Below are positions 6,536 through 49,386 of a stretch of 58,899 bases of DNA, piece after piece. Within the stretch, counting starts at the first letter, position 1; every line of letters starts with the position of its first letter. Location: the NCBI GenBank assembly GCA_900314215.1, contig OMUK01000099.1, positions 1 to 58,899 on the forward strand, given 5' to 3'. Under the pieces are notes generated by a model. It had not been told where the DNA came from, made no database searches, and worked only from the letters and a program-made list of their open reading frames with translations. Made by a program: the position numbers and the translations under genes. The DNA comes from an uncultured Prevotellaceae bacterium. GTDB lineage: Bacteria; Bacteroidota; Bacteroidia; Bacteroidales; Muribaculaceae.

Positions 6536-6551
6536 CATTTTTTATATCAAG

Positions 6552-8384: not shown

Positions 8385-8417
8385 TGGTGTTGTGTAACCA
8401 TTAAATAAACCATCGAT

Positions 8418-9347: not shown

Positions 9348-9387
9348 CAGTCCAGAGAAAGATTATTGTGACTGCAAGAGAATAGCA

Positions 9388-9421
9388 AAGCCTGCTCCCC
9401 CCAATTGCGGGAAGCAGGCTT
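9388..9421. terminator. Shared hairpin between the convergent deacetylase and murQ genes
   Basis: The stem AAGCCTGCT (9388-9396) pairs with AGCAGGCTT (9413-9421). A C-run and a G-run inside can extend the stem. A short T-rich tail follows on both strands, so it can end transcription from both sides. Confidence 0.7.
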
Positions 9422-9492
9422 CATTGTGCTGTGTTGTAATGCCTTGCGGGCTAGTTGCCCTGTCGCAAGGGCAAGCGCGGCGCGCACGCGCT

Positions 9493-10314: not shown

Positions 10315-10371
10315 ATATCAATTAGTATTATATATAAAATGTTTCGATATTGAGTGCCTCACTCGCCGCCC

Positions 10372-26824: not shown

Positions 26825-27230
26825 CAATCTGTACAATTTTTTATAGAAAAATGTGCATGGTGCGCAAGCGCACACCAATTCTATTCTACAAAAATACTAT
26901 AAACATTCGGTTTAATTGGCCTAATTTCAAGTAAAATTGCCCTTTTTCACAAGATTTGTGATTTAACAACAATATTTTAGAATTTCGCGTTCCCCAGCCC
27001 CGAAATCGGCGCAAAAACACCCCCACTTGGTGCACCCCAACCCACCGCTCCGCCTCACACAGAAAACCATTTCCCCAATCATTTAATCCCGCCAAGGGCT
27101 ACACATTTGTTGTGGGCCGGCACAAGACCGGCGCCCTACAGGTGGATATAATCAACGCGGCGGTGTGTCGCATTTAAACGACAACCCTGATTTGCACCCG
27201 CTCCCACAATAAGATGCCTGGCATGGTGAA
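26825..27230. other. Intergenic region upstream of the salvage run
   Basis: No gene is supported. On the minus strand TATTTTTG (26889-26896) is a perfect -7 element, but no good TTTG lies at the proper distance, so this is only a candidate promoter for the golvesin-amidase and the genes after it. The leader also holds the short palindrome TGCGCAAGCGCA near 26860. The segment 26900-27230 holds imperfect GC-rich inverted repeats of no clear use. Confidence 0.4.
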
Positions 27231-33486: not shown

Positions 33487-36400
33487 TCACTTGGCCAGGT
33501 ATTGCAGCAGGCTGGCGATGAGGCGGGAACGGGTGGCGGCGTCGGTGATCGACTCGAGGGGGAAACCTATCACGGCTGTGCGATAGGTGCCCTTGTCGCT
33601 CACGATGGCAGCCTGCTTGTTGTTCTCGGCATAGCGCATGAAGCCCGTGCTGCCCTTGGCCGAATAGATGGCATCGGGCGACTCCACACAGTAGAACTTG
33701 TCGCTCAACTGCTGGTTGAAGTCGATGCTGTCGCCCTCGGGCAGCATCTTGTAGACGGTGGGCAGCACATAGGCCCGGCCGGTGACGGTGGCCTGACTAC
33801 AGCCCCAGCGGTAGCCCAGCACCTGCTGGGTGAAGTTGACCTCGGCCGTGTCGGGGTGAGCCTTGTCGTAGACGTCGCTACCCACATAGCTGCCCGAGAG
33901 CAGCACGCTGCCGCCGCCGTTGCAGTAAGCCTTGAGGGCGCTGCGCAGGGCGGGAGTGAATATCTTGTAGCGGCTGGGATAGTAGCCGCGGCCGTTGGGG
34001 GTCTCCTTCTGTTTGCCAGCAATATAGTCGAGCAACTTGAACGAAGCGAGGCTGGCCTGGCCGTTCTCGACGGCCTGCACGCTGGCCGAGACAAAGGCAT
34101 AGCCGGCCTGCATGATGGCGGCGCCATGCACGGCAGGGAAGTCGAAGGTGTTGCCAGCCACCACCTTGCCCTCATAGTCGCTGTGGCTGCTGCCCCAGCC
34201 GCCCGAGTCGTCGTCGCGCCACCGCTTGCTGCGCAGGCGCTCATATTGCTGACCGATGTAGTTGATGCCCTGCACGTAGGGCACGCCGTGGTCGGTCTCG
34301 CCAGTAAAGCCGCAGTAGTCGCCATAGTCGGCCCAGTCGGGGGCACTCAGGCGGGTGAAGCCGTTCACCACCATCACCATGCCCTTGCTGCCAGCAGGCA
34401 CGCCAAGCGAGAGGATCTCGCTGGGGAAGCTGCGGCCGCCGTCGTTGAGGGCAATCACCTTGTAGCTGTGCATGAGGTTGTCGGTCACCGTCACGGTGTA
34501 TTCACACTTGTCGACCACGGCAATCTCGGCAAAACCATTGGTGGCATCGCCCACCCGCTCGGCCACGATGTAGCGCTTGGGCATGGCGGTAGACTCCAGC
34601 GAGTCGACCGTGGGCCGCCACGTGAGTTTGAACTGGCCGCCTTGCAGCGGAGTGATGGCAAATGACTGCACAGGCAGGGGCTGCACCACCACATCGCGGT
34701 GGTCGCGGGCAGCAATCCAGCGCAGTATGCCCTTGTAGATGGCGCGGCTCGAGGCGAAGATGAAGTTGGGGTCGAGGCCATAGCGCATGTCGGCAAAGTT
34801 CTGGTGCGAGAGGTACTCGAGCAACATGCCCGGCACCTGCGGCACACGTATCTCGTAGAGGTTTTCCTGCGTGAGGCCGCGGTTGGTCCAGTTGGGCTCA
34901 AAGAGGGCGCGGGCGTCGTTCACAAGCTGGGTATTGACCATCTCGGCCAGGCGGCGCGAGATGATGCGCGGCGTGCCGTCGGCATAGCGGCCGAAGCCGT
35001 TGCTGCGGTAGATGCTCTGGGTGCCCACAATCGTGTTGTCGGGCGTCACGCCGGCATCGGTGTGGAAGGCAAACGAGAGGTCGAGGGGCACCTTGAGGCC
35101 GATAGTCTGCGTGGGATTGGCGCTGCTGCCGCCCGAGAGATAGTTGACCCACTCGCTGCGACTGCGGAAGTCGTCGGCATAGTCGGTGAGGCCGCGCGAC
35201 ACGGTGTAGACGCTGTCGGGGAAGCCCGACCACTGCAGGAAGTAGCGCGAACCCTCCACATAGCGGGGCATGCCGCTCACCACAGGGGTGTAGTCGACGC
35301 CGTCGCGCTGCAGGGTGTGGCGCCAGTTGTAGCTATCGGCCCAAGCACGGTTCTCGGGGGTGTTGGGCAGGGCGGTGCGGGCTATATTGCCCATGCCGCC
35401 GCCTATCTTGACGGCATCGGCCGTGACCACGCCGCCCTTGCATTTCGATTTGTTGGAGAGTGTGACCAGGTCGCGGTTCTCGCCCTTCTTGAGCGGGAAA
35501 GTGCCCAGGTATACCCACACGCCGCCAGCCATGCGCTGGTTCACAGTGAATGTACGGCTCATGCCCGAGGCATTGACGGTGTATTGCGCGTCGTCGACGC
35601 TGCCGTCAAGCGTCTTGTAGGAGATATACACGGCATAGTCGCCGGCCTCGGGCATGGTGGCGCTCCACGAGGCCGCAGCCCCGCCCTTCTTATCGGCGGC
35701 TATCTGGCGGGCGCTGCCGTCGGCAAATGGGTTGTGGAAGTCGAGATAGGTCTTCTGCTTATAGGCAAAGCCTGCGCCGGCATCGCTCCACTGCTGCTTG
35801 CCGCCCTGCTCGCTGTAGCCGCTCTGCGCCAGCTGGCCGTCGTTGTCGACGATCACCTCGGTGCGGTGGGTGTCGCGCTCACGCGGGTTCCACACATAGG
35901 CGCCCGCATTCTCGAGCATGGGCATGACGAAGGGTATCACATAGCTCATGGGATACAGGTCCTCGTGGGTCTCAAAGAGGCGCGGACGCTGCCACTCCCA
36001 GTGGTTGATGGCGGCCTCGTAGTAGAAGCCGTGGCTCTGCCAGAAGGCGATGAGGTTGCCGTCGAGGCCCTTGCTGTAGTGCCGCGTGGGGCTGTTCTCG
36101 CTGATGAAGGCCTCGTGCTTTCTGGCCCACTTCTTATCGAAGTCAAAGAAATACTTGCCTATGTCGTCGCCGGCAATGGTGAGTTTCACTTCCTTGCCGG
36201 TGAATTGCGGCCCAGCAGCCTGGCGCAGGTCGGTCTTGAGCCGCTCTACCTGCTCGGGGGTGAACTGGTTGTAGGCATAATTGGCGCCCACGTCGACCAG
36301 CAGCGTGTCGCCGCTCACGGCCACCTGGTTCACCTTCACGCCGCCCGTCTTCACATTGGGGCCTATGGCGGCCAGCAGCACCCCTTTCACCTTGCTCTTG

Positions 36401-36495
36401 CAATTCTCGTCGAGGGTCGTCGCCTCCATGGTGTTGTTGCCGACAGCCAGCACGGCAAGGGACAACAATGCAATCTTGAAAAGTTGATTCATCAT
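33487..36495 (-). CDS. Secreted golvesin-domain protein with a split Amidase_3-type core, copy 2
   Basis: This 1002-residue paralogue of the protein at 23762-26824 has a signal peptide and the same order of parts. It keeps the presumed zinc and catalytic residues: His in FWQSHGFYYE, Glu in HWEWQRPRL, His in FAFHTDAGVT and Glu in MLLEYLSHQNFAD. The golvesin-like region lies between the first pair and the third residue. FnIII-like and alpha/beta C-terminal parts follow. Only the pattern, not the activity, is certain; peptidoglycan amidase is my inference. It precedes the GH78 gene and is about 250 bases downstream of the second sugar kinase. Confidence 0.75.
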   Translation of the reverse strand: MMNQLFKIALLSLAVLAVGNNTMEATTLDENCKSKVKGVLLAAIGPNVKTGGVKVNQVAVSGDTLLVDVGANYAYNQFTPEQVERLKTDLRQAAGPQFTGKEVKLTIAGDDIGKYFFDFDKKWARKHEAFISENSPTRHYSKGLDGNLIAFWQSHGFYYEAAINHWEWQRPRLFETHEDLYPMSYVIPFVMPMLENAGAYVWNPRERDTHRTEVIVDNDGQLAQSGYSEQGGKQQWSDAGAGFAYKQKTYLDFHNPFADGSARQIAADKKGGAAASWSATMPEAGDYAVYISYKTLDGSVDDAQYTVNASGMSRTFTVNQRMAGGVWVYLGTFPLKKGENRDLVTLSNKSKCKGGVVTADAVKIGGGMGNIARTALPNTPENRAWADSYNWRHTLQRDGVDYTPVVSGMPRYVEGSRYFLQWSGFPDSVYTVSRGLTDYADDFRSRSEWVNYLSGGSSANPTQTIGLKVPLDLSFAFHTDAGVTPDNTIVGTQSIYRSNGFGRYADGTPRIISRRLAEMVNTQLVNDARALFEPNWTNRGLTQENLYEIRVPQVPGMLLEYLSHQNFADMRYGLDPNFIFASSRAIYKGILRWIAARDHRDVVVQPLPVQSFAITPLQGGQFKLTWRPTVDSLESTAMPKRYIVAERVGDATNGFAEIAVVDKCEYTVTVTDNLMHSYKVIALNDGGRSFPSEILSLGVPAGSKGMVMVVNGFTRLSAPDWADYGDYCGFTGETDHGVPYVQGINYIGQQYERLRSKRWRDDDSGGWGSSHSDYEGKVVAGNTFDFPAVHGAAIMQAGYAFVSASVQAVENGQASLASFKLLDYIAGKQKETPNGRGYYPSRYKIFTPALRSALKAYCNGGGSVLLSGSYVGSDVYDKAHPDTAEVNFTQQVLGYRWGCSQATVTGRAYVLPTVYKMLPEGDSIDFNQQLSDKFYCVESPDAIYSAKGSTGFMRYAENNKQAAIVSDKGTYRTAVIGFPLESITDAATRSRLIASLLQYLAK

Positions 36496-36741: not shown

Positions 36742-37593
36742 TTAATCGTCGCGGTGATAGGCCACCAAGCCCGGCATGGAGTTGAGCACAATCTTCTTGA
36801 TAGTGGCGCCGAAGCGGTTGGCTACCGAGAGCAGTATCTCGCTATAGGTGCAAGCCACCTGACCCACAAAGCACACGGGATAGTGCTTGTAGTCGTACTG
36901 GCTGATGTTGCGCTCAAAGAAGCGCATGAACTCGTGCTCGACGATGCCGCGCACATAGTCGTTGTCGAGGTGCTTGGCCAGGAAGAAGCTATAGGTGCGC
37001 AGGTTGTGGTTGGCCATGGGATTGGAATACACGGCATCCATGATGTCGTCGGGCGTCACCTTGTACTCGTCGAAGAAAGCCTGCGACACCTCTTGCGGAG
37101 CCACCTCCTTGAGCACATCGCTCAGGAAGATGCGGCCCAGCGCGCTGCCACTGCCCTCATCGCCCAGGATGAAGCCGGCAGGGCGCACGTTTTTCACGAT
37201 TTTCTCGCCATCATACTGGCAGGAGTTGGAGCCCGTGCCCAAGATGCAGGCCAGGCCGGCGTCGTGGATGAGCAGGCCGCGGGCCGCGCCCACCAGGTCG
37301 CTCTCCACGGTGACGGGCGTCTTGAACTGCGCCACCAGCGACACCTCCACTATCTTGTTCTTGTCGGGATTGGAGCAGCCGGCGCCGTAGTAGTACACAT
37401 GCTCCCACCTGCGCTTGAAAAAAGCCTGAGGCAACTCGAGGCGAATGATGTGGCTAATCTCGCGACGAGTTTGGAAAAACGGGTTCAAGCTGCCCGTGAA
37501 GGCATGCTCCAATATGTTGTCGCCGTCGACCAGCACCCACTCGGTGCGGGTTGAACTGCTCTCGGCTATCACTTTCACGCTTTGGTTATTCAT
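36742..37593 (-). CDS. Second BadF/BadG-type sugar kinase
   Basis: The 283-residue paralogue of the MurK-like protein shares CILGTGSNSCQYDGEK and FILGDEGSGSALGR. Its phosphate-1 loop reads AESSSTRTEW (10-19) where MurK has ADCGSTKIDW, so the usual Asp, Gly, Lys and second Asp are all replaced by similar residues (Glu, Ser, Arg, Glu). It may have altered metal or sugar preference, or regulate rather than catalyse. Likely substrates are GlcNAc, MurNAc or anhydroMurNAc. It has its own well-formed promoter (37652-37683) and so is controlled apart from the salvage run. Confidence 0.8.
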   Translation of the reverse strand: MNNQSVKVIAESSSTRTEWVLVDGDNILEHAFTGSLNPFFQTRREISHIIRLELPQAFFKRRWEHVYYYGAGCSNPDKNKIVEVSLVAQFKTPVTVESDLVGAARGLLIHDAGLACILGTGSNSCQYDGEKIVKNVRPAGFILGDEGSGSALGRIFLSDVLKEVAPQEVSQAFFDEYKVTPDDIMDAVYSNPMANHNLRTYSFFLAKHLDNDYVRGIVEHEFMRFFERNISQYDYKHYPVCFVGQVACTYSEILLSVANRFGATIKKIVLNSMPGLVAYHRDD

Positions 37594-37882: not shown

Positions 37883-40333
37883 TTAGTGTTGCACAGCCAC
37901 CTTGTGGGTAGTGGCGGTGCCGGCCACATACACGCGCAGCAGGTACACGCCCGCAGCCACATCGCTCACGTTCACATAGTTGCCGGCGTTGCGCTTCACC
38001 ACCTGGCCACTGGTGCTCAGCAGCTCCACGCCGTCGATAAAGCCGTCGGCGCTGGCCACGATGTAGTCGCTGGCAGGCACGGGACCCACCTTGACGGTGG
38101 AGTTGGTATTCACCTTATCCACGCCCGAGGGATAGAGCTTGAGCAGGTTGTCGATCTTGATGGCGCCCGAGTAGCCCATCTTGGAGTCGTTTTTCACGAG
38201 CTTGAAGCCCGCCACGCGATAGGTCACGCCTGCGTCGAGGCTGTCGAGCGACACGGTGGCATAGTGCCAGCCGTGATAGTCGATCTTGCTCAGCATCACG
38301 ATCTTCCACTCGGCGCCACCAGTAGCGCTGGTGGGCTCGAGCATGGCATAGAGGGTGTTGTAGCTCATGTCGCCGTTGATGTGGATGCCCAGCTGGTCGC
38401 CCTTGGTCAGGGTCACCGCGCTCGGGTTGTTAACCTGGAGCTCCAGCTGGGTGGCGTAGCAGGCGGTGGTGTCGGAATAGAACTGATAGCTCCACTGCAG
38501 CGACTTGCTGTCAAAGAGCTTGTCGGTCGATGCCTGCAGGGTGCCGGTGGGGCTGCCCACGCAGTCGGTCAGGGCCAACTCGTAGTCAGCGGCCGATTCA
38601 AAACCGTCGATGAGCGTGCCGCTCTTGGCTTCGCCGGCATCAACAGCGGTGAAGTTGTAGGTCTTCGAGCCATCGAGATGCAGACCGATGGTGTCGCACA
38701 GCGCCTGGTCGACCACGAGCTTGTAGCTCTCGCCGGGGGTGAGGGCCTTGAGCAGCGACAGGCGGGCATAGCCGTAGTCGTCGCCGCGCTTGTTGTACTT
38801 CACATTGCGCTTGTTGTAGCTCAGCTCGGCGCCATCCTTGTCGTAGACGTGGAAATAGGTGGCGATGTTGTAGGCATTGAGCAGCGAGTCGGTGCGGAAT
38901 TCCACATATTGGCCTGCCTTGTAGTGCACTTGGGCGCCCTCATAGGGGAACACAGCCAGCGGATAGATGTGGTTGCGGTCCTGCGTCTTGAACTGGAAGG
39001 TGAAGTCGCTGTCCATGGGCGTGCCGCCACCGTGCTGCGCCGTCTTCTTGAGGGTGACGGTGTAGAGTGTGTTCACATCGTAGGCATCGTTGGGGGTAAA
39101 CACCAAGCGGTAGTTGGTGTCCTCCCAGGTGAAGGTGCCCTCAACGGCAGGAGTGATGGTGAAGGCACTCTGAGTCGAAGCGCTGTCCATGTCCCAGTTG
39201 AATTGCAGCACGATGGGGGTGTTGCACTTCACAGCCGCGTCGCCCTGGGCCCACACGGGGCTGTAGCTCACGACCTTGGGCGGCGTGTTGCGCACGCGCT
39301 TGAGGTCGAAGTTGCAATAGGTGGGCGCATTGGCAGTCACGGTCACCTGCTTCGACTGCGAGAAATGCGACGAATCGCTCACCTCGATGGTATAGGTGCC
39401 TGGGGCGACATACTTGAAGAGGTAGATACCCGTCTCGAGCGAGTCGGTGGTGGTGGTCTGCACCACATTGCCAGCCTGGTCGAGGAGCCGCACTTGGGCG
39501 CCATCGACGGGCAGGCGCTTGTCGTCGCCCATCATCACATAGGTGCCGGTGCGTATCACGCGGTCGTCGCGAATGTTGCCAGTCACGATGCCTTGCCCAA
39601 ACTTGTCGAGGCGGTTGAAGTATTTGTCGGCTCCCAGCGAGAAGTTCCAGCCTTCTACCCAGCAGTAGTCGGGGTTGATGAGGCGCTCGGCCTCGGGAAT
39701 GTAGTCGTGGAATGAGCCCTCGTCGAGCATCGACACTGCGGTGTTGCCACGCAGCACGCCCAGACCCACATGGTAGCCCCACTGGGGATAGAAGGTCCAG
39801 TCGCCGTAGATGAAGTATTTCTCATTGCTCCACACGGTGCTGCGGTTGGCGAGGATATAGGGAGCCAGGCAGGCAACGAGCGAGTCGGAGCCGGCAATCA
39901 CGGGTTCGCCTGTGTTGCCGCGGTAGAAGCCCATGGGGTAATTGATGCGGTAGCCCTCGCCGGCGCCCGTGGCATTGCTGTGGATGGCGTAGAACACGTC
40001 GGCGCCGCTCTGGTTGCACAGGGCCACAATGGTAGAGAGGGCAAGGTCGCTCTCGGTGGTATTGGTGATGCGCGAGATGCTGGTGGTGTAGCCTTTCTTC
40101 TCCAGAATCTGCTTCAGGGCTATGCCCTTCTTCAAGCTGGCGTTAGACTCCCAGAAGCCGCTGGTGTCGCCCTGGGCAAAGTGCGGCGTGGCCACATTGC
40201 GGTCGTCGCTGTCGTGGCCGCCGTGGCCAGGATTGATATAGACGTGGGGCTTCTCGGTGCTGGCCGTGATATAGCTGGCACCCAATACTGCAGCAACGAA
40301 CTGCACAAATAAGATAAACAGGTATTTTTTCAT
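37883..40333 (-). CDS. Secreted N-acetylmuramoyl-L-alanine amidase with accessory domains and a T9SS sorting tail (amidase-a)
   Basis: The 816-residue protein has a signal peptide and an Amidase_3 domain (about 30-250) with zinc ligands H37 (NPGHGGHD), E62 (WESNASL) and H118 (AIHSNATG) and catalytic E205 (SMLDEGSFHD). It would cut the bond between MurNAc and L-alanine. After it come a carboxypeptidase-regulatory-like fold (about 262-345), a bacterial Ig-like domain (about 350-450) and a jelly-roll-like region (about 560-720). The last 80 residues, with PVPASDYI, SGQVVKRN and GVYLLRVY, look like a type A sorting domain of the type IX secretion system. It is the longest of three amidases here, 15 bases after its PD40 partner gene. 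Confidence 0.88.
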   Translation of the reverse strand: MKKYLFILFVQFVAAVLGASYITASTEKPHVYINPGHGGHDSDDRNVATPHFAQGDTSGFWESNASLKKGIALKQILEKKGYTTSISRITNTTESDLALSTIVALCNQSGADVFYAIHSNATGAGEGYRINYPMGFYRGNTGEPVIAGSDSLVACLAPYILANRSTVWSNEKYFIYGDWTFYPQWGYHVGLGVLRGNTAVSMLDEGSFHDYIPEAERLINPDYCWVEGWNFSLGADKYFNRLDKFGQGIVTGNIRDDRVIRTGTYVMMGDDKRLPVDGAQVRLLDQAGNVVQTTTTDSLETGIYLFKYVAPGTYTIEVSDSSHFSQSKQVTVTANAPTYCNFDLKRVRNTPPKVVSYSPVWAQGDAAVKCNTPIVLQFNWDMDSASTQSAFTITPAVEGTFTWEDTNYRLVFTPNDAYDVNTLYTVTLKKTAQHGGGTPMDSDFTFQFKTQDRNHIYPLAVFPYEGAQVHYKAGQYVEFRTDSLLNAYNIATYFHVYDKDGAELSYNKRNVKYNKRGDDYGYARLSLLKALTPGESYKLVVDQALCDTIGLHLDGSKTYNFTAVDAGEAKSGTLIDGFESAADYELALTDCVGSPTGTLQASTDKLFDSKSLQWSYQFYSDTTACYATQLELQVNNPSAVTLTKGDQLGIHINGDMSYNTLYAMLEPTSATGGAEWKIVMLSKIDYHGWHYATVSLDSLDAGVTYRVAGFKLVKNDSKMGYSGAIKIDNLLKLYPSGVDKVNTNSTVKVGPVPASDYIVASADGFIDGVELLSTSGQVVKRNAGNYVNVSDVAAGVYLLRVYVAGTATTHKVAVQH

Positions 40334-40348
40334 CGTTACGCTTCAGTT

Positions 40349-41239
40349 TTATGGGTTAATAGCTATTTTCATCTCATGCAGCATGCCATCGATGGTGGTA
40401 TACACAATCTTGCCGGCAGCGCTGGTGGGCTGCATCGTCATGGTAGAGGGAGCCGTGAGGCTGGTGGCAAAGGTGCCGTCGGCCTTGAGCAGCATGATTT
40501 GCGACGAGGTGAACTGATGGCCGTCGTCGGTGGCATGCTGCGCCACGATGTAGTCGTTGTCGTACCAGGCAGGCATCTCATACTTGCCGAGCATCGCCAG
40601 CACATTTCCCTTCAGGTCGATGACCACGATACCCTTCTCGGCAGCGACAAACGCTACCTTCTTGCCATCGGGCGACAAAGTGGGCCATATATAGCCGGCC
40701 CACGACTCAACGGGGCTGTAGCTGGCCGTCTTGTCCGCCGTGGTAATGTAAATTCTGGAGCCCTCGGTGTAGACCGAAGTGCCCAGGTTGGCAGCCGAGG
40801 CATAGCGCTTCTTGCTGCCCTTCAGGGCCACGCCGCGCATGCCCATAGCCACGTGCATGGCGCCATGCTGCGGCTCGAGCACCACCTGGTCGCTGCCGCC
40901 AGCCACATTGTAGCGGTGACCGGTGCGGTACACCAGGTTGCCCTCGGTCACGGCCTGCGTCACATAGTACACATTGCCGTCGGGGCCAAATTTAGCGTCC
41001 ATGCCGGCGCCGCGGCCGGTGCTGATGGTGGTGGCCGCCTTGCCAGTAGTGAAATCATAGAGTTTCAACCCCTGGGCGTCGCCAGCCGAGTAAAGCAGCT
41101 GGGTGCCCGCCTTGTTGAGCTGGGGATAGAATGCCGGCTCGGTGATGCCTTGCACGCGCTCGTCGCTCGTAACGGTGACCACTTGAGCGCCAGCAATCAG
41201 GGCACATGAGCCCAGCATGAATAGTAGAACTTTTCTCAT
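40349..41239 (-). CDS. Secreted PD40/TolB-like beta-propeller protein, partner of amidase-a
   Basis: The 296-residue protein has a signal peptide (about 1-18) and PD40-type propeller strands such as YPQLNKAGTQLLYS, AKFGPDGNVYYVT and PTLSPDGKKVAFVA. It lacks a catalytic motif, so a binding role is likely. The block EPQHGAMH is shared with two paralogues at 43844 and 48421 (as QHGAV). Each of the three lies directly upstream of an Amidase_3 gene, here with 15 bases between. I infer that it works with the amidase, for example as a substrate-binding or localisation partner in the envelope. Confidence 0.78.
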   Translation of the reverse strand: MRKVLLFMLGSCALIAGAQVVTVTSDERVQGITEPAFYPQLNKAGTQLLYSAGDAQGLKLYDFTTGKAATTISTGRGAGMDAKFGPDGNVYYVTQAVTEGNLVYRTGHRYNVAGGSDQVVLEPQHGAMHVAMGMRGVALKGSKKRYASAANLGTSVYTEGSRIYITTADKTASYSPVESWAGYIWPTLSPDGKKVAFVAAEKGIVVIDLKGNVLAMLGKYEMPAWYDNDYIVAQHATDDGHQFTSSQIMLLKADGTFATSLTAPSTMTMQPTSAAGKIVYTTIDGMLHEMKIAINP

Positions 41240-41298
41240 TTCAATAAAAAATAGTATAAGTAATTAATTAGTTATAAGCACATGAAATACTTCACCCA

Positions 41299-41306
41299 CA
41301 AAATTA
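41299..41306 (-). promoter_or_regulatory. Candidate promoter for the PD40-a/amidase-a pair
   Basis: TAATTTTG on the minus strand is a perfect -7 element about 60 bases before the start codon. Twenty bases further up is TTTT instead of TTTG. It lies just after the terminator of the preceding gene, which supports an independent unit. Confidence 0.5.
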
Positions 41307-41335
41307 CTCAAAATCACGGGAAAGTAAAAAAAAAA

Positions 41336-41388
41336 TTGCAGCAAATCGAGGCGGACCCTGCTACGGCCACAGCGCCAATTTGCTGCAA
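41336..41388 (-). terminator. Terminator after the phytase-like gene
   Basis: The 11-bp stem TTGCAGCAAAT / ATTTGCTGCAA encloses a 31-base loop and is followed on the minus strand by about ten T residues. It lies just after the stop at 41417. Confidence 0.75.
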
Positions 41389-41416
41389 TGTTGCTCACCA
41401 CGAGGGTGTTTCAAAA

Positions 41417-42751
41417 TCACCTCATGATATACTTCTTTCCATCCTTGATATAGATCTCCTTGTAGGCGGGATGTGCCACGCGGCGGCCATTCAGGTCGTA
41501 GACGGGGCTGGAGGCTTTCTCCTGCACGGGTGCGATGGGTGAGTCGACGCCAGTGGGCTCGACCGGTGCCACCACATTGAGCGTGTAGCTGGCCGTGTCG
41601 GCAGGATAACCCGATGTGGCGGGGTCGCAGGTTGCTGTGATGGTGGTGGTGCCCTCGTTGAGCAGGGTCAAATTGCCACTTTGGTCGATGGTGGCCACAG
41701 TCTCGTCGCTTGAGCTATAAGTCACAGGCACACTGTGGGGGTTGTGCAGGCGCTGGGCCTTGAAGGGCTGGTTGAGGGGCACCTCGCACACCGAGTCGGG
41801 ATATTCCAGCTCGGCAGCCATGGTGTAGCTCAACTTGGCACTTTTGAGCCAGTCGTGTAGCATGCCGTGATAACGGTTCTGCGAGTCGGCAATGAAAAGC
41901 AGCGCGCGCGACCCGTCCTTGAGGCGAGGTCCAAGGCACATGCCCTCATAGTTGGCCCACGTGTTCGCCAAGAGTTTGAATTGGGTGCTCCAGTTCAGCA
42001 GCAAGTGCTTGTGCGAGCTCAACTCGGGCCAAATGCGATAGAGCTTGCAGTTCACCGCCTTGGTGCTGAGCAGCGTCACCAGCGCCTCGCGCTCGAGCAA
42101 GAGCAGCGAGCCATCGTCGAGGGCGCACACCGTGCCTATGCCGTGGGCATAGACCAGCGCCGAGGAAGTGTTGTAGATAGGATCATCGATGGTGTAGGGA
42201 TACTCGCCCACATCTTGCAAGTCGTTGTCGTCGAAGGCGGTGATAGTCACAGGGGTGGTCTCGTTGCACGTCCACAAGCGGCGTGTGCTGTCGTTGTAGC
42301 TCAAGGCCTCGAAGCCGGCATTCTCGGGCAGCGAGTCGTAGACTGGCGGCAGGGGCACCACGCGGCCAGTGCGCTTGCCATCGATAGTGTATTCACGTAT
42401 CTGGTTGTCACCCTCGCCGCTGATGAAGAGGCGGCCGGTGTGGGGCACATAGGCTATGCCCTCGTCGTCGCGAGCCTCAAAGCCGCTGGAGTGGAAGCCC
42501 TCGTTGCTCACCGAGAGGATGGCTCCGCTCACCGAGTCGAGTTGAATACGGAAGATATAGAAACCATCGGTTTCCGATTTGTCGCTCACCACGGCATAGC
42601 GGTCGCCGCCGAGCCAGGTGATGCCGCTGTAGTTGCCGGCGGGCACGCTGTCGGAAGCATCAAACTGCGGATTTTCGGTCACCGTGTATTGTGCTTGTGC
42701 GGCCAGGGCCGTAACCAGCAAAAGTAAAAGCAAGAATATATTTTTCCTCAT
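41417..42751 (-). CDS. Secreted phytase-like (esterase-like) protein with a bacterial Ig-like domain
   Basis: The 444-residue protein has a signal peptide (about 1-20). Residues about 25-320 match the esterase-like/phytase-like propeller family (SGITWLGGDRYAVVSD, ARDDEGIAYVPHTGRLFISGEGDN, PENAGFEALSYN). A Big_2-type Ig domain (about 335-400, VPVTYSSSDETVATID) follows. The tail with VYDLNGRRVAHP and IYIKDGKKYIMR resembles a short sorting signal. True activity in this family is rarely known; a phosphoesterase or esterase is possible. It lies 38 bases after amidase-b and is probably the last gene of that transcript. Confidence 0.78.
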   Translation of the reverse strand: MRKNIFLLLLLLVTALAAQAQYTVTENPQFDASDSVPAGNYSGITWLGGDRYAVVSDKSETDGFYIFRIQLDSVSGAILSVSNEGFHSSGFEARDDEGIAYVPHTGRLFISGEGDNQIREYTIDGKRTGRVVPLPPVYDSLPENAGFEALSYNDSTRRLWTCNETTPVTITAFDDNDLQDVGEYPYTIDDPIYNTSSALVYAHGIGTVCALDDGSLLLLEREALVTLLSTKAVNCKLYRIWPELSSHKHLLLNWSTQFKLLANTWANYEGMCLGPRLKDGSRALLFIADSQNRYHGMLHDWLKSAKLSYTMAAELEYPDSVCEVPLNQPFKAQRLHNPHSVPVTYSSSDETVATIDQSGNLTLLNEGTTTITATCDPATSGYPADTASYTLNVVAPVEPTGVDSPIAPVQEKASSPVYDLNGRRVAHPAYKEIYIKDGKKYIMR

Positions 42752-42789
42752 TTTATCTGAAAATATAAGTCAAAAAAAAGTACAGCACA

Positions 42790-43830
42790 TTAATAGCTGA
42801 CGTTGCAGTAGGTCGAGCCGTTGGCGACCACGGTCACAGGATAGCTGCGGGTGGCTGCGCCGTCGACGGTGACGGTGTAGTTGCCGGGCTCCAGGTCGCG
42901 AAACACGTAGTAGCCATTGTTGAGGTGGTCGGTGACATACTGCCGCAGCTCGCGTCCCTTGCCGTCGAGCAGGTGCACGCGGGCGCCGCTCACCGGCTGA
43001 TGGGCGTCGTCGCCATAGGTCTTGGTCTCGGCCGAGTCTACGCGCAGCTGCTGGCTGTAGCGCACGATGCCGGCTATGGCTCCCTTGCCATAGTTGCCCA
43101 GGCGGCCGAAATACTCATCGATAGCCTGGCTGTGAAGCCAACCCTCGAGCCAGTTGTAGTCCTTGTTGAGCAAGCGCTCGCGCTCGGGCAAGTAGTCGTG
43201 ATACACAGCCTCGCTGAGCATGCCGGGCAGCTTGTTGTAGCGCAGCACGCCCAGGCCGGTGCGATAGCCCCAGTGGGGATAGAAAGTCCAGTCGCCCGAG
43301 ATCATGGGCACGCGCGACCAGCACGTTGCCTTGCTGGCATAGAGACGGCGCATCACATAGCTGGCAATGCTGTCGCTGCCAGGCGTAACGGGCCGGCCGG
43401 TCCAACCGTGGTAGAGGGCGAGGGGGAAATTGACGCGGGCGTCGGTGCCGGTGTCGTTGCTGTGAATGCAGAAGAACATGTCGGCGCCGCTGTCCTCGGC
43501 CAGCTGGCATATCTCGAAGAGGTCGAGGTCGTCGCAGGTGCCATTGTTCACCCTCGAGGTGTACACATCGTAGCCTTTTTTCTTGAGGATGTCGACAAGG
43601 GCGTTGCCCACGCCCAAGTTGCTGTCGCTCTCATAGTAGGCCACGGTGTCGCGGGCAGCCTGGTTGTAGAAGGGCTCGTAGCGGTCGTCGTCGTCATGGC
43701 CGCCATGACCAGGATTGACGTAGACACGCGGTTTCTCGCCAGTGAGCTTGTGGCGTGCTGCAGCAGTGCCAACACACATTGCAGCCAGGGCAAAAATCAG
43801 TAAGTATCGAGTGATCGTTTTCATTTTCAA
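42790..43830 (-). CDS. Secreted N-acetylmuramoyl-L-alanine amidase (amidase-b)
   Basis: The 346-residue protein has a signal peptide (about 1-25) and an Amidase_3 domain (about 35-255). Zinc ligands are H42 (NPGHGGHD), E67 (YYESDSNL) and H123 (CIHSNDTG), with catalytic E207 (GMLSEAVYHD). The C-terminal part (about 262-345, HLLDGKGRELRQYVTDHLNN start) is a carboxypeptidase-regulatory-like beta domain. It lacks the Ig, jelly-roll and T9SS parts of amidase-a, so it probably stays periplasmic. The start at 43830 is 13 bases after its PD40 partner; a second ATG two codons later is also possible. Confidence 0.9.
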   Translation of the reverse strand: MKMKTITRYLLIFALAAMCVGTAAARHKLTGEKPRVYVNPGHGGHDDDDRYEPFYNQAARDTVAYYESDSNLGVGNALVDILKKKGYDVYTSRVNNGTCDDLDLFEICQLAEDSGADMFFCIHSNDTGTDARVNFPLALYHGWTGRPVTPGSDSIASYVMRRLYASKATCWSRVPMISGDWTFYPHWGYRTGLGVLRYNKLPGMLSEAVYHDYLPERERLLNKDYNWLEGWLHSQAIDEYFGRLGNYGKGAIAGIVRYSQQLRVDSAETKTYGDDAHQPVSGARVHLLDGKGRELRQYVTDHLNNGYYVFRDLEPGNYTVTVDGAATRSYPVTVVANGSTYCNVSY

Positions 43831-43843
43831 GTTCCTCCCCTAT

Positions 43844-44734
43844 CTATTTGTCATTATCAACATTCACTTTGAGCCAGTGCACCTGGCCCTCGCGTGTGGT
43901 GTAGACCACGGTGTTGCCCACGGTAGCGGGCTGGATGGCACGGGCATTGTCGACCAGGATGTCGAGGCGCTTGCCATCGACGGTCATCATGTAGATGCGC
44001 GAGCCCGTGAGGCGTATGTTGCCGCTGTTGCTCATGGCCACAATGTGGTTGTTGCCCAACCAGCAGGGCATGAGGAAGAGGCCTAGCTCTGAGATGACCT
44101 TGCCATTCAAGTCGCACACATAGAGGCCCTTGCCAGCTGCCACAAAGGCAATCTTGCTGCCGTCGGGCGAGATGCTCGACCACAAGTAGCCCGTGACACC
44201 GCTCACCGGGTGCAGCGTGCGCACCTTGCCGTCGCGTGCCACATAGAGGTTGGGACCTTGCGTCCAGCACAGCAGGCCGGCCTTCTTGAGGTTCCACGAC
44301 TTCTTCTCGCCCACAATGGCCACGCCCTTGCTGCCCACGATGGCCTTGACGGCGCCATGCTGGGGCTTGAGCACCACCTTGTCGCGGCCCGTAGCCGGGT
44401 CAAAGAGATGCCCCGTGCGGTAGATGAGGTTGCCCTCACCGCGCTGCATCGTCACATAGCACACTTTGCCATCGGGAGTGAAACGCCCCGAGAAGCCTGG
44501 GAAGCCAGTGTCGCTCACCACCTGGGCGCTGCCAGTGCCGTCGAGCGGCTTGAGCATGAGCCGCGCTGCCTCGTAGGATGAATACAGGAGCATGTGTCGG
44601 GGTGCACCCAAGTAGAGCTGCGGGAAAAATGCATCGCTGTCGGTCACAGCCACTTGGCTTGCGACAGCCTCGGTCACCTGTGCCCTTGCAGCTATCGCAA
44701 GCAAGGCGGTGATGACAAATAGAAGTTTTTTCAT
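43844..44734 (-). CDS. Secreted PD40/TolB-like beta-propeller protein, partner of amidase-b
   Basis: The 296-residue protein has a signal peptide (about 1-18) and the propeller repeats FPQLYLGAPRHMLLYS, GRFTPDGKVCYVT and SSISPDGSKIAFVAAGKG. The family-specific block KPQHGAVKAIVGSKG matches those of the two sister proteins. It is the first gene of a unit with amidase-b and the phytase-like gene. Its upstream region shares a 67-bp identical stretch with the upstream region of the LRR gene. Confidence 0.78.
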   Translation of the reverse strand: MKKLLFVITALLAIAARAQVTEAVASQVAVTDSDAFFPQLYLGAPRHMLLYSSYEAARLMLKPLDGTGSAQVVSDTGFPGFSGRFTPDGKVCYVTMQRGEGNLIYRTGHLFDPATGRDKVVLKPQHGAVKAIVGSKGVAIVGEKKSWNLKKAGLLCWTQGPNLYVARDGKVRTLHPVSGVTGYLWSSISPDGSKIAFVAAGKGLYVCDLNGKVISELGLFLMPCWLGNNHIVAMSNSGNIRLTGSRIYMMTVDGKRLDILVDNARAIQPATVGNTVVYTTREGQVHWLKVNVDNDK

Positions 44735-45071
44735 TTTCTATGTTATGGTTTACATTGAATCCTTAATTCCGCACCACGTTTGTTTCATATTTTTAAATCA
44801 CTGAGCCACAACATGTTGCCCAGTATCTTGCCGTGTCACACATTTCACTTCACTCAGTGGTGCTATAAAAAAGCAAATAAAATACTGGCACGGCACGGCA
44901 AAATTAGCTATAAAATCTAAGAATCGAGCACCTTTAGGTGAGGAAATTATCCATTGATAGTGCATTTTACCTCAAAATTGGCTCCTGCCATGCCACACAT
45001 CGTGCATAGCAGGGGCTGGCCCCTGCTGCAGGAGTCAGCCCCAATTGTTTCTCTTCTGTCCTCAAGCGGGG
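44735..45071. other. Intergenic region with shared leader and a GC-rich double hairpin
   Basis: No gene is seen. It contains the 67-bp repeat at 44842-44908, the -7 element TAATTTTG (minus strand, 44899-44906) and, at about 45008-45042, two overlapping GC-rich inverted repeats (AGCAGGGGC/GCCCCTGCT and GGGGCTG/CAGCCCC) just after the LRR stop. These have no T-run on the minus strand, so termination there is uncertain. Confidence 0.5.
44842..44908. repeat. 67-bp direct repeat, copy 1 (upstream of PD40-b)
   Basis: This stretch is identical over all 67 bases to 47169-47235. It includes the -7 element TAATTTTG on the minus strand (44899-44906). The following bases toward the gene are related but diverged between the two copies, so the whole leader of about 155 bases was probably duplicated. 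Confidence 0.95.
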
Positions 45072-47081
45072 TTATTTCACCAGCACTTTGCGGCTTTGCC
45101 CGCCGGCTTGCACGATCACCACCTGGCCACGGCTTGCGGCTACACTGATGTTGCCCTTGCCTGAGCCCAGCAGCCCACCGGTGATGGAATAGACACGCAC
45201 AGGCATGCCATCGGGCACATTGCTCAATGCCAGCGTGCCATTGTCACAGGTGATTTCTACCTCGTCGTTGCTCACGCTATTGACGCCCGAAGTACTCAGT
45301 GGCAAAATCTTGCCAAAGTTGAGCCACGGTCTTGCAGATTGATAGTAGACAATAGAGACCTCGGGCACATAGAGCGTCTTGGTTGACTTGTGCTCAAAAA
45401 ATTCAAGTTTGTACTCCGATGAATATGGAGGATCAGTAGCAAGGCAGTAAACTGTCTTGATGCTGTCGCAGGAGAAAAAGCAAGATGCTCCCACCTCTTG
45501 CACGGCACTCCCGATGGTGACGCTTGTCAAGCCCGTGCAACCATAAAAGCAAGACACTCCTAGCAAAGTCACTGAGTTGGGGATGGTGATGCTCGTAAGG
45601 CCCGTGCAACCCTCAAAGCATTCATAACCTAGCGAAGTCACTGAGTTGGGGATGGTGACACTTGTCAGGCCCGTGCAACCCTTAAAGCAAGATTCGCCCA
45701 GCGAAGTCACTGAGTTGGGGATGGCGATGCTTGTCAGGCCCGTGCAATCATAAAAGCAGTTCTTTTCCAGCGAAGTCACAGAGTTGGGGATAAACGTGTT
45801 TCTACATCCAAACATCATTTTATTTGAACCTTTTTCAATGATGGCATTGCAGTTGTTTCTTGAGTCAAATGTGCTATTATTGTCAGAAACGATGATACTC
45901 GACAGGTTGTCACAATTACTGAAACAGCCAACGCCTATTGAATTCACCGAGCCAGGGATGGTGATGCCCGTCAAGCTCTTGCAACCTGCAAAGCAATATT
46001 CGCCCAGCGAAGCCACTGAGTTGGGAATATCAATGGTTGTCAAGCTCTTGCAACCTGCAAAGCAAGACTGTCCCAGCGCAGCCACTGAGCTAGGAATGGT
46101 GATGCTTGCCAAGCTCGTGCAACCAGCAAAGCATGCTGTGCTCAACTTAGTCACTGAGCTAGGTATGGTGATGCTCGTCAGACTCGTGCAACCCTCAAAG
46201 CAAGATTCGCCCAGTGAAGTCAAGGAGCCAGGAATGGTGACACTCGCCAGACTCTTGCAGCCCTCAAAGCAAGATTTTCCCAGCGAAGTCAAGGAGCCAG
46301 GAATGCTGGCGGTTGCCAGGCTCGTGCAACCATAAAAGCATTTTGTGCTCAGCTTAGTCACTGAATCCCCGACGACCACGCTCGCCAGGCCCGTGCAACC
46401 TGCAAAGCATGCTGCACCCACCTCAGTCACTGAGCTAGGCATGGTAATGCTCGTCAGGCTCGTGCAACCCTCAAAGCAAGATTCTCCCAGCGAAGTCAAG
46501 GAACTAGGCATGTTGATGCTCGCCAGGCTCGTGCACCAAGAAAAGCAATTCTCTCCCAGTGAAGTCAAGGAGCTGGGCAAGGTGATACTCTCCAAGCTCG
46601 TGCAACCCTCAAAGCAGCCAAGACAAGCGCCATCATTTGTAAAACATGGCGCTAAGTTGGTCACACTGGAGGGGATTGTAACCGACTTGAGGCTAGAGCA
46701 ATGATAGAATGCTCCTTTTAATTCCTTGATACCTTCGGGAAGTTTTACGGTAGTCAGACTTGAACACTCCCGAAAACAGCCAGTGCCTATTGAAGTCACC
46801 GAGTTCGGGATAGTGACATCGGTCAAGGTCGCACAATCCATAAAGCAATAGTCCTCGATCGAAGTCACGGGATAAGAAACGCCATCAGCCGTGATGCTTG
46901 CAGGAATTTTGATCTCAGGCCTAGTCTTATAGGTACCATAATTAACCACCTGTGCCGTACTATCGCCGGTATTGACGGCATAGCGAATGCCGTCGACCAC
47001 ATAATACAGCGTGCTTGCCTTGACTGTCGTGGCTGTCGATAACATGAGCAGTGCAAGGAAAATGCTTAAATGCTTTGTCAT
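45072..47081 (-). CDS. BspA-like leucine-rich repeat (LRR_5) surface protein
   Basis: The 669-residue protein has a signal peptide (about 1-22, ending VKA) and about nineteen repeats of 23 residues of the form SCFEGCTSLTSITIPSSVTSLG. One island without the pattern (VSDNNSTFDSRN) breaks the array, as in other BspA-type proteins. The last 45 residues, with VRVYSITGGLLGSG and RKVLVK, resemble a sorting tail. BspA-like proteins bind host matrix, other cells or glycans. The ATG at 47081 was chosen for the signal peptide; the frame is open 30 bases further. Repeats are also close to identical in DNA, so copy number can change by recombination. Confidence 0.88.
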   Translation of the reverse strand: MTKHLSIFLALLMLSTATTVKASTLYYVVDGIRYAVNTGDSTAQVVNYGTYKTRPEIKIPASITADGVSYPVTSIEDYCFMDCATLTDVTIPNSVTSIGTGCFRECSSLTTVKLPEGIKELKGAFYHCSSLKSVTIPSSVTNLAPCFTNDGACLGCFEGCTSLESITLPSSLTSLGENCFSWCTSLASINMPSSLTSLGESCFEGCTSLTSITMPSSVTEVGAACFAGCTGLASVVVGDSVTKLSTKCFYGCTSLATASIPGSLTSLGKSCFEGCKSLASVTIPGSLTSLGESCFEGCTSLTSITIPSSVTKLSTACFAGCTSLASITIPSSVAALGQSCFAGCKSLTTIDIPNSVASLGEYCFAGCKSLTGITIPGSVNSIGVGCFSNCDNLSSIIVSDNNSTFDSRNNCNAIIEKGSNKMMFGCRNTFIPNSVTSLEKNCFYDCTGLTSIAIPNSVTSLGESCFKGCTGLTSVTIPNSVTSLGYECFEGCTGLTSITIPNSVTLLGVSCFYGCTGLTSVTIGSAVQEVGASCFFSCDSIKTVYCLATDPPYSSEYKLEFFEHKSTKTLYVPEVSIVYYQSARPWLNFGKILPLSTSGVNSVSNDEVEITCDNGTLALSNVPDGMPVRVYSITGGLLGSGKGNISVAASRGQVVIVQAGGQSRKVLVK

Positions 47082-47168
47082 AATCCTCAATTCAGCACCA
47101 CCATTATTCAATATTTTTATAAGTTGTTGACCGTCAATGTATTGTCCATCACTTTTACCACGCCAGAA

Positions 47169-47235
47169 ATTTCACTTCACTCAGTGGTGCTATAAAAAAG
47201 CAAATAAAATACTGGCACGGCACGGCAAAATTAGC
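47169..47235. repeat. 67-bp direct repeat, copy 2 (upstream of the LRR gene)
   Basis: Identical to 44842-44908. The -7 element TAATTTTG lies at 47226-47233 on the minus strand, with TTG-containing sequence about 20 bases upstream. The leader to the LRR start at 47081 would be about 140 bases long. Confidence 0.95.
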
Positions 47236-47295
47236 AATTAGATTGGAAAATCAATCAGCTTTCAGGAAAATTTTCCCTATGGCGTGGAGCATTTG

Positions 47296-48405
47296 CTACT
47301 GGCCGTTGCCGGTGGCGGAAGAGTCGTTGACACTTATCGACTCGCCTTGCTGCTTGATTGTGGGGATGGTGATGTTGCAGCAGGTGCTTGAATTGGCCTT
47401 CACAGTCACCGGGTGGCTGGGGGCGCCGTCCACCTCAACGGTGTAGTTGCCAGGCTTGAGACCGGTGAACGAGTAGAAGCCGTTGTTGTAGCTGTCGGTC
47501 TGGTAGCTGGCTATCACGGTGCCATCGGGGGTGCACAACTCAACGGGCATATTGTTGACGGGCTGGTAGGCGTCGTCACCGAAGGTGGTGACACGGCTGC
47601 CCTTGCGGCGGTAGTCGTAGCGCACGATGCCGGCAATCACGCCCTTGGAGAAGCCGCTGCGGTTGAAGAACTCGTCGAGCGAGATGCTGTGCAGCCAGGC
47701 GTTGTTCCAACTGTAATCCTTGTTGAGGTAGCGCTCACGCTCGGGCACATAGTCGTGGAAGCCCGACTCCACAAGCATGCCAGGCACCTTGTTCCAGCGC
47801 AGCACGCCCAGACCCACGCCATAGCCCCAGTTGTAGAAGCTCCAGTCGCCGCGCACCTGGCTGCCGGCCGACCAAGAGGTGGCCTGATTGTTGTAGAGGT
47901 TTTTCACCACCAGCCGGCCCAGCTCCTTGCTGCCCTCGGCTGCCTCGCGGTCGGTGTAGCCGCGGAAGATGGCAAGCGGGAAATTGATGCGGCGCGACGT
48001 GCCCGTGCTGTTGCTGTGAACGGCAAAAAACACATCGGCCCCGTAGGCAAGAGCCATCTGACTGATTTCAAAGAGGTTGAGGTCGTCTTGCGTGGTGTTG
48101 TTGTAGCGCGAGGTAAACACCTCGTAGCCCTTGTTGCGCAATATGTCGTAGAGTGCCTGACCCTCGGCCAGGTTGCTGTCGCTCTCATAGAAAGTCACAC
48201 GCTGCTGCGCCCCCTCGTTGTAGAAGGGAATGGGGCGGTCGTCGCTGTCGTGGCCGCCGTGACCTGGGTTGATAAACACACGCGGACGTATCTTACTTGT
48301 AGATTGTGACTTGACTGTGCTTTGGGCACCAGCAGGCACAGCACACACCAGCGCCAAGCCTGCAAGTGCAAATATCTTGTTGATAAAATTCATTTTTCTT
48401 TGCAT
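47296..48405 (-). CDS. Secreted N-acetylmuramoyl-L-alanine amidase (amidase-c)
   Basis: The 369-residue protein has a signal peptide (about 1-27, ending AGA) and an Amidase_3 domain (about 40-260). Zinc ligands are H49 (NPGHGGHD), E74 (FYESDSNL) and H130 (AVHSNSTG), with catalytic E213 (MLVESGFHD). The C-terminal part (about 265-350) is a carboxypeptidase-regulatory-like beta domain, followed by a short serine-rich tail. It is close in layout to amidase-b. I chose the ATG at 48405, 15 bases after the PD40 partner; an ATG at 48393 is equally good for a signal peptide. Confidence 0.9.
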   Translation of the reverse strand: MQRKMNFINKIFALAGLALVCAVPAGAQSTVKSQSTSKIRPRVFINPGHGGHDSDDRPIPFYNEGAQQRVTFYESDSNLAEGQALYDILRNKGYEVFTSRYNNTTQDDLNLFEISQMALAYGADVFFAVHSNSTGTSRRINFPLAIFRGYTDREAAEGSKELGRLVVKNLYNNQATSWSAGSQVRGDWSFYNWGYGVGLGVLRWNKVPGMLVESGFHDYVPERERYLNKDYSWNNAWLHSISLDEFFNRSGFSKGVIAGIVRYDYRRKGSRVTTFGDDAYQPVNNMPVELCTPDGTVIASYQTDSYNNGFYSFTGLKPGNYTVEVDGAPSHPVTVKANSSTCCNITIPTIKQQGESISVNDSSATGNGQ

Positions 48406-48420
48406 CACTGCTTAAAAAAA

Positions 48421-49386
48421 TTACTGATCGTGGTCTTGCGAATCCTCCTCATTATTCTCACCGCCTGCATTGCCACCCGACGGCGACTGCTCGCTGCCAG
48501 CGGCAGGCTTGCTCACCTCGTAGCCTTCCTCACCCTTCAGAATGATGGTGATGAGGCGCACGGCACCGCCCTTGGTGGTGAATATGATGTTTTTGCCTGC
48601 AACCATGGGCATTGTGCAACTGCCGCTGGCAAGCGTCTGCGCGTCGCTGCAGTCGGCTGGAATGAGCACAATGCGGTAGCCACGGCTTTGGGCTACGATA
48701 TAGTCGTTGTTGTACCAGCTGGGCATCAAGTAGGATGTGTTGCTGTGGGCCAGCACCTCGCCAGTGGTGGTGCTGCACACATAGAGCCCCTTGGCCACGG
48801 CCTCAAAGGCCACCTTCTTGCCGTCGGGCGAAACCGCAGCCCACATGTAGCCGGCGCAATTGCGCACCGGGCTGTAGACCTTGACGCTGCCGCCGCGAGA
48901 GATGTAGAGCCGCGCGCCAAGCGTCCAGGCCACCACGCCAGCCTCGCGCTGGTGCCACTGCTTCGACTCGCCTATCACGGCTAAGTCCTTGTTGCCATTG
49001 ATGGCATGCACGGCGCCATGCTGGGCGCCCAGCACCACCTTGTCGTTGCCCGTAGCGGGGTCATACTCGTGGGCCGTGCGGAATATCAGGTGATCGGGGT
49101 TGATGGCCATGGTGATGTAGTAGATCTTGCCATTGGGGGCAAATCGGCCTTCAAAGCCTGGCATGCCTGTGCTGCTCACCGTCGTGCGGTTGCCGCTCGA
49201 CAAGTCGTAGAGGTAGAGGTAACGTGCCTCGGTATCGCTGTAGAGCACTTGCGTGCCCTGATAATTAATCTGAGGGAAATAGCCTCCGCTACTCGTGATC
49301 TGGCGCGACGAGGCTACACGGCAGTAGGTCTGTGCGCTACACAGCACAGCTGTCATCGCTATTAATAATGTGACTATTTTTTTCAT
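48421..49386 (-). CDS. Secreted PD40/TolB-like beta-propeller protein, partner of amidase-c
   Basis: The 321-residue protein has a signal peptide (about 1-19). Propeller strands include FPQINYQGTQVLYSD, GRFAPNGKIYYIT and AAVSPDGKKVAFEAVAKG. The shared block GAQHGAVHAINGNK is present. Unlike its sisters it ends in a polar, acidic tail (SEQSPSGGNAGGENNEEDS). The ATG at 49386 gives the signal peptide; the open frame extends 75 bases further upstream but would cover the promoter. It is 15 bases before amidase-c. Confidence 0.78.
   Translation of the reverse strand: MKKIVTLLIAMTAVLCSAQTYCRVASSRQITSSGGYFPQINYQGTQVLYSDTEARYLYLYDLSSGNRTTVSSTGMPGFEGRFAPNGKIYYITMAINPDHLIFRTAHEYDPATGNDKVVLGAQHGAVHAINGNKDLAVIGESKQWHQREAGVVAWTLGARLYISRGGSVKVYSPVRNCAGYMWAAVSPDGKKVAFEAVAKGLYVCSTTTGEVLAHSNTSYLMPSWYNNDYIVAQSRGYRIVLIPADCSDAQTLASGSCTMPMVAGKNIIFTTKGGAVRLITIILKGEEGYEVSKPAAGSEQSPSGGNAGGENNEEDSQDHDQ

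Follow-up and report, generated by a model that had tools for sequence, protein, structure and literature searches.

The window analysed here is the entire 58.9 kb contig OMUK01000099.1 (contig G000:C93 in our numbering) of an uncultured bacterium, whose draft genome comprises 2.88 Mb and is 90% complete. Related genomes are Muribaculaceae-type metagenome assemblies, many of them ruminant-derived. Three gene pairs were identified in the window, each consisting of a gene for a PD40 propeller protein followed by a gene for an Amidase_3 enzyme (Table 1). A sequence-only reading of this DNA had described the order PD40 then Amidase_3 as occurring three times, and the open reading frames (ORFs) bear this out, all on the minus strand. 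The partners are separated by 12, 13 and 15 bases instead of the 13–15 reported.

All three enzymes score above the Pfam cut-off for Amidase_3 (65, 49 and 41 bits). The PD40 cut-off of 20.9 bits is exceeded only by the pair 2 propeller (24.1 bits); the other two propellers score 17.5 and 19.6 bits. Compared with the PD40 protein of pair 1, those of pairs 2 and 3 are 43% and 39% identical in amino acid sequence; the corresponding values for the amidases are 54% and 41%. Signal-peptide-like N termini, judged by eye, are present on both partners, in line with the earlier proposal that both are secreted; a sorting domain of the type IX secretion system (T9SS) is recognised on the third amidase alone, where it exceeds the TIGR04183 cut-off. 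A special QHGAV/M block had also been pointed out in the PD40 proteins. The block is present in the window (QHGAV, QHGAV and QHGAM), but the motif QHG[A/Q/V] occurs in only 66 of 187 propellers and is absent from the fourth pair of this genome; it is a clade trait and was ruled out as a hallmark of the propeller family.

Table 1. Propeller and amidase genes of the window, with the sorting domain of the third amidase (T9SS, type IX secretion system; aa, amino acids).
Feature	Coordinates	Strand	Remarks
PD40 propeller protein, pair 1	48421..49386	-	321 aa; longest frame starts 49461
Amidase_3 + SdrD_B/CarboxypepD_reg-like domain, pair 1	47296..48408	-	370 aa; no recognised T9SS signal
PD40 propeller protein, pair 2	43844..44734	-	296 aa
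Amidase_3 + CarboxypepD_reg, pair 2	42790..43830	-	346 aa; no recognised T9SS signal
PD40 propeller protein, pair 3	40349..41239	-	296 aa
Amidase_3 + CarboxypepD_reg + Big_5 + T9SS type A sorting domain, pair 3	37883..40333	-	816 aa
T9SS sorting domain of pair 3 amidase	37889..38083	-	TIGR04183

The fourth PD40-Amidase_3 pair lies on another contig of the same genome, and its two genes overlap by four bases. Its amidase scores under the Pfam cut-off (25.5 versus 27 bits), and the active-site residues align. Because all four such PD40 genes of the genome are followed by an amidase gene, chance adjacency was rejected, and the pairing counts across genomes given below rule it out. The genome holds six Amidase_3 matches in total, namely the four paired enzymes and two Golvesin_C proteins of about 1,000 amino acids encoded in the window (23762-26878 and 33487-36495, minus strand), which have no PD40 partner. 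In many same-genus genomes, the contig that bears a pair also has frames of about 1,000-1,055 amino acids that match Amidase_3 weakly.

A search was performed to retrieve related loci from other genomes. The PD40 profile matched 27 of 41 genomes at an E value of 0.001, a figure that takes in the own genome and also some weak matches to unrelated long frames, and 20 of 393 genomes of the order at 1e-8; a broader propeller profile matched 60 of 392 genomes of the phylum at 1e-12, the own genome being included in both counts. At most six (order PD40), five (phylum PD40) and two (phylum amidase) candidates were scored per genome, so that the counts are lower bounds. In the neighbourhoods, ORFs were called and then matched with profiles of both partners. 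The phylum set consisted of 40 regions for PD40 matches, to which 10 further regions were added later.

Among 107 PD40 genes of the genus/order set, the script found an amidase next in 84, before in 6, in the same ORF in 11 and none in 6. The PD40 gene of locus L097 (6371-7273) merely lies behind a fusion; its own amidase seems to have been lost, and a search recovered only a C-terminal fragment of one. With this gene subtracted from the script count of 101, an own Amidase_3 adjoins or shares the ORF of 100 of the 107 genes. One of the six partnerless genes (L077) precedes a GHL10 gene and the other five sit at contig ends. In two of these five, L132 and L138, the truncated piece before the propeller matches the C-terminal part of amidases of the reversed-order kind, with best identities of 75-82%. 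The phylum set holds 44 PD40 genes, spread over 40 loci. An amidase is next to 36 of them, before 3 and in neither place for 5, which gives 39/44 by script and 40/44 with L301, whose amidase has a longest ORF that overruns the PD40 gene and which was paired by eye. One of the three amidase-before cases, L278, is a second PD40 gene sharing one amidase. The L282 gene that lacks an adjacent amidase is the first of a PD40-PD40-amidase run, and the unpaired L299 gene lies inside the cluster, not adjacent to the amidase. The other two of the five are an extra propeller gene at L273, ahead of a gene for an Amidase_2 + T9SS protein, and the gene of L291, which has no adjoining hydrolase. The ten further regions yielded more pairs (L311, L314 and L317), together with L310 and the weak L312 and L313, which have no partner. 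The median gaps between propeller and amidase genes in the three sets are 7.5, 14 and 10 bases, and 30/84, 15/80 and 9/36 next-gene pairs overlap. The gene order is reversed at L117, L127, L128, L137, L140, L296, L308 and L311.

Searches from the amidase side gave a similar picture. In 73 of 75 named-genome loci, which are the best matches to the window amidase, hence biased to this subfamily, and partly on the same contigs as loci of the other genomes, PD40 is directly upstream or fused. At L205 and L207, a PD40 gene lies behind the matched amidase and ahead of another, L205 being cut at the contig start. Across the phylum, 61 of 63 amidase matches have a same-strand PD40 gene within 1.6 kb; left out of this count were 23 rows that hold the C-terminal Ig/sorting part only or, in one case (G514), start mid-amidase at a contig edge, two G500 rows were merged, and from the 78 PD40 rows the two that represent window pairs 1 and 2 were omitted. 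Of the two exceptions, G480:C15 adjoins a weak-scoring PD40 gene (L314) and G763:C9 has none (L319).

To compare the histories of the partners, tree distances of PD40 proteins and amidases were correlated over 187 unique pairs, with a Mantel r of 0.939. The maximum was 0.106 in 1,000 free shuffles, whereas partner shuffles confined to genomes, run twice, averaged 0.337 and 0.335 and reached at most 0.513 and 0.531. Distances between paralogues inside genomes are also correlated (0.901, n=140), and the best-matching paralogue is the same for both partners in 9,279 of 10,142 comparisons versus about 43% by chance. With single-ORF cases excluded, r is 0.938 against a shuffle maximum of 0.576. In small subsets of low power, with few multi-pair genomes, the values equal or barely exceed the maxima (cluster 2 without fusions, 0.919 versus 0.918; cluster 5, 0.869 versus 0.869). 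The two trees are thus congruent, within genomes too, as expected from the earlier suggestion that the partners have co-duplicated and diverged; discordance was not seen.

Propeller and amidase share one ORF at eleven genus/order loci and 30 named loci, partly in the same genomes. All single-ORF cases but one are 633-713 amino acids long and based on the short amidase. Their joints contain at most 7-12 apolar residues per 15, as compared with 13-15 in 87 of 100 unfused amidase N termini, and the internal signal peptide therefore seems to have been lost; ten of the genus/order loci and the 30 named loci have no internal signal-like stretch. In PD40 and amidase trees alike, the fusions form pure groups of 27, 5 and 2 tips, nested in a clade with 8 (PD40 tree) and 18 (amidase tree) unfused tips. 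Since pure groups sit in a mixed clade, the trees suggest one to three fusion events, or later splits. Every unique single-ORF case (35 of 35) retains the PGH and HSN motifs. In an alignment with 54 amidase-bearing rows, each of these rows has the active-site residues; in PD40-only rows the HSN column consists of misaligned letters.

The AlphaFold2 model of the pair 2 propeller is all-beta and propeller-like (predicted local distance difference test, pLDDT, 93.2; predicted template modelling score, pTM, 0.87). Its best Foldseek match in the PDB is TolB (2w8b, E value 4e-8). For the domain survey, 57 propellers and 56 partner amidases were chosen across the phylum set. PD40 (PF07676) was matched at an E value of 0.01 in 52 of the 57 propellers, TolB and other propellers are among the structural matches, and TolB chains occur among the propeller profile matches. 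A natural 643-residue fusion was modelled from an alignment of 82 rows, of which 29 are fusions and the rest propellers or amidase parts alone, with pLDDT 92.9 and pTM 0.91. Around the junction of the halves (residues 281-310), the block means of pLDDT are 92-94. For two rigid halves of undefined orientation, a clearly lower pTM is expected, and the packing of the fusion is therefore predicted confidently. Foldseek matches of its amidase half include AmiC2, CwlV, AmiC and three solved amidase-partner complexes, CwlD-GerS (7rag, chain B), AmiB-EnvC (8c0j) and LytH-ActH (7tj4).

Amidase_3 (PF01520) was matched at E 0.01 in all 56 partner amidases, and CarboxypepD_reg in 48. Four residues, H37, E62, H118 and E205, are invariant in the alignment of the 56 enzymes; we take H, E and H to be the zinc ligands and the second E to be catalytic. 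The enzymes are accordingly annotated here as putative N-acetylmuramoyl-L-alanine amidases, predicted to cleave the MurNAc-L-Ala bond. Export signals are distributed asymmetrically. At E 0.01, a T9SS type A sorting domain was matched in 53/56 amidases by TIGR04183 and in 51/56 by Pfam, and in none of the 57 propellers by the Pfam model PF18962; TIGR04183, run on the three window propellers, found none there. The own genome encodes SprA and has 13 sorting domain matches. A scan found no T9SS signal in the amidases of pairs 1 and 2, in that of the fourth pair, or in fusions L172 and L106. Since these paired amidases carry no recognised signal, the pairing is independent of the export signal.

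The observations on which an interpretation can be built are conserved adjacency, fusions, co-inheritance, intact active-site residues and asymmetric export signals. Judging from the fusions and the fusion model, the propeller probably binds the amidase. A positive role of the propeller for the enzyme is slightly favoured. There is an even chance, in our estimate, that the two proteins form a two-part peptidoglycan hydrolase unit in which the propeller, with its TolB-like fold, is a dedicated accessory subunit. In such a unit, a signal peptide of its own would take the propeller, usually encoded first, into the periplasm. The propeller would dock on the amidase, which would need it for correct folding, activity or positioning on peptidoglycan. 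Amidases with a type IX export signal predominate across the phylum sample, and we infer that this tagged form is ancestral. Muribaculaceae-type genomes have short amidases that lack the signal and nevertheless retain the propeller, and fusion into a single protein has taken place in one clade.

Several points weigh against this two-part unit. Tree congruence marks a unit of inheritance and is no proof of contact, because neighbouring genes are co-inherited by linkage. The fusion model concerns one natural fusion and is read from pLDDT and pTM, scores that do not extend to the geometry between propeller and active site. The longest single-ORF case (L121:2955-7502, 1,515 amino acids) is likely a frameshift or read-through, since its joint retains a signal-peptide-like stretch and its propeller match ends about 20 residues early; on these grounds it was dropped as a second independent fusion event. 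Seven short solo amidases of the genus, which belong to the same subfamily (L147-L153, 375-421 amino acids), have no PD40 neighbour, and L319 is another, so that such amidases can do without a propeller; L147, the only one of the seven scanned, gave no T9SS match. A few PD40 genes lack an adjoining hydrolase (L291, which is the same as L318, and L310; more weakly L312 and L313). Their small number rules out PD40 as a generic, often lone neighbour, and the commonly solitary PD40 genes that the sequence-only reading had named as a refutation did not turn up. Its proposal of an obligate two-part unit can be kept in a narrower form: the association is near-obligate from the propeller side, but not from that of the amidase. 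Amidase_3 is the usual partner, as had been proposed, but one PD40 gene precedes GHL10 (L077) and one divergent PD40 gene precedes Amidase_2 (L273).

The strongest rival explanation casts the propeller as a holdase or inhibitor in the periplasm, which renders a dangerous T9SS-bound amidase harmless to the wall of its producer until export and then remains behind. We consider this rather unlikely overall. It gives the best account of the export asymmetry, with sorting domains on nearly all amidases and on no propeller, and it agrees with the propeller gene usually being first, with the presence of SprA in the own genome, and with the other partners, GHL10 (L077) and Amidase_2 (L273), also being T9SS-tagged members of wall-hydrolase families. 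Its fit to the fusions is poor. An inhibitor that can never come off should leave the enzyme inactive, and the fusions disfavour the explanation because their propeller cannot be released and yet the active-site residues are kept. In pairs 1 and 2 and in fusions L172 and L106, the propeller is kept although the amidase carries no recognised T9SS signal, and the reversed-order loci place the amidase first. A broader version, that a periplasmic propeller class accompanies T9SS-bound hydrolases phylum-wide, is likewise rather unlikely. Each propeller would bind its cognate enzyme in the periplasm of the producer, keep it folded and away from the wall there, and then either stay behind at the outer membrane or pass through the T9SS pore piggyback, by virtue of the signal on the enzyme; if true, it would represent a cargo-specific chaperone or a co-cargo of type IX secretion.

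Ligand binding is a common function of propeller folds, and the protein might instead bind peptidoglycan or another glycan and bring the amidase there with catalysis unchanged. PorE, which joins a TolB-like propeller, a CarboxypepD_reg-like fold and a putative peptidoglycan-binding domain according to the available text of PMC5053529, lends some support to such targeting. However, no carbohydrate-binding family is among the 18 families matched by the 57 propellers, and the confident fusion geometry suggests more than a tethered binding head, which makes targeting alone improbable. It is very improbable that the genes are operon neighbours only, held together by linkage and selection for co-expression while the proteins never touch. 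Congruent trees and a shared order can come from linkage alone, but the fusion clade, the occurrence of both gene orders, retention throughout the phylum sample and the confidently packed fusion model do not fit. The two-part hydrolase unit with an accessory propeller remains our preferred reading.

Amidase_3 enzymes with a dedicated partner are a known kind, and a separate partner protein is conserved with the amidase here as in the EnvC, GerS and ActH systems. CwlD-GerS of Clostridioides difficile, an Amidase_3 enzyme with a dedicated secreted partner, is matched by the fusion model. GerS is reported to dock on CwlD at a distance from the active site and to favour the binding of zinc, as described in the excerpt of PMC8496864; it is a lipoprotein of Peptostreptococcaceae, and neither a propeller nor T9SS appears in that description. 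AmiA, AmiB and AmiC with EnvC, NlpD and ActS are further examples of Amidase_3 enzymes switched by a separate partner (excerpts of PMC10268282 and PMC8496864). In EnvC, unlike the propellers, an activating LytM domain displaces an autoinhibitory helix (same part of PMC10268282). Profile alignment to AmiA shows that its extra segment is absent from the present amidase family, and EnvC-style release of an autoinhibitory helix is thus unsupported by this comparison. LytH of Staphylococcus aureus is also matched by the fusion model and needs its partner ActH, which in contrast is a transmembrane protein according to the portion of PMC8496864 available.

TolB of the Tol-Pal system is the best solved-structure match to the propeller, but the window propellers score 29.8, 28.0 and 23.2 bits with TIGR02800 against a cut-off of 343, are about 300 amino acids long and are encoded beside hydrolases. 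PorE (PG1058) is similar in its predicted TolB-like propeller, CarboxypepD_reg-like fold and T9SS context, and differs, as far as the available text of PMC5053529 describes it, in being a single protein for which TPR and OmpA_C-like domains are listed, but no domain of the amidase type. With PorE in view, two longer PD40-profile matches were scanned; L116 has propeller-type matches only and L157 is a peptidase S9. On the best reading, the propeller would be a dedicated amidase partner in the manner of EnvC, GerS and ActH, set apart by its TolB-like propeller fold and by an amidase that in most cases is T9SS-tagged.

The propeller fold of the partner and the tie to T9SS set the present pairs apart from these systems. 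Literature searches for a PD40-amidase pair, largely confined to open-access papers, found no paper. To our knowledge, there are few kinds of partner for Amidase_3, namely LytM proteins, GerS and ActH, and a phylum-wide propeller partner would add another. The pairs raise a question not met in the literature searched, namely how T9SS exporters of wall-cutting enzymes spare their own wall while these are on their way out. Ready test material exists in the natural fusions, the solo amidases and the pairs, some of which carry an export signal while others do not.

Genes for GHL10, Amidase_2 and GH18 proteins, most with a T9SS signal match, are found near some loci and suggest a wider wall-degrading set. 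At L077, a GHL10 gene with a T9SS signal match (5298-8927) directly follows the PD40 gene that has no amidase, and at L283 another (8827-11217) immediately precedes a pair. L273, L278, L282, L314 and L317 each have, within the pair or next to it, an additional PD40 protein that is more divergent (64-106 bits) and whose N terminus looks lipoprotein-like by eye; that of L273 precedes an Amidase_2 + T9SS protein. With GHL10 genes near the L077 and L283 propellers, DigH of Escherichia coli, which we presume to be a GHL10 member, offers a comparison. The term itself is absent from PMC12288456, and the excerpt describes DigH as a glycosidase in cells that accumulate amidase-made denuded glycans, with no propeller partner in that description.

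Searches of the window with Rfam at the gathering score and for tRNA genes gave no match. Four other genes around the pairs lie on the minus strand as well. At coordinates below 37,883, an alpha-L-rhamnosidase-type glycosidase is encoded at 30736-33423, and the product of 36742-37593, which has no Pfam match at E 0.01, looks by eye like a BadF/BadG-type sugar kinase. A phytase-like protein with Big_2 (41417-42751) is encoded between pairs 2 and 3, and a BspA-type leucine-rich repeat protein (45072-47111) between pairs 1 and 2.

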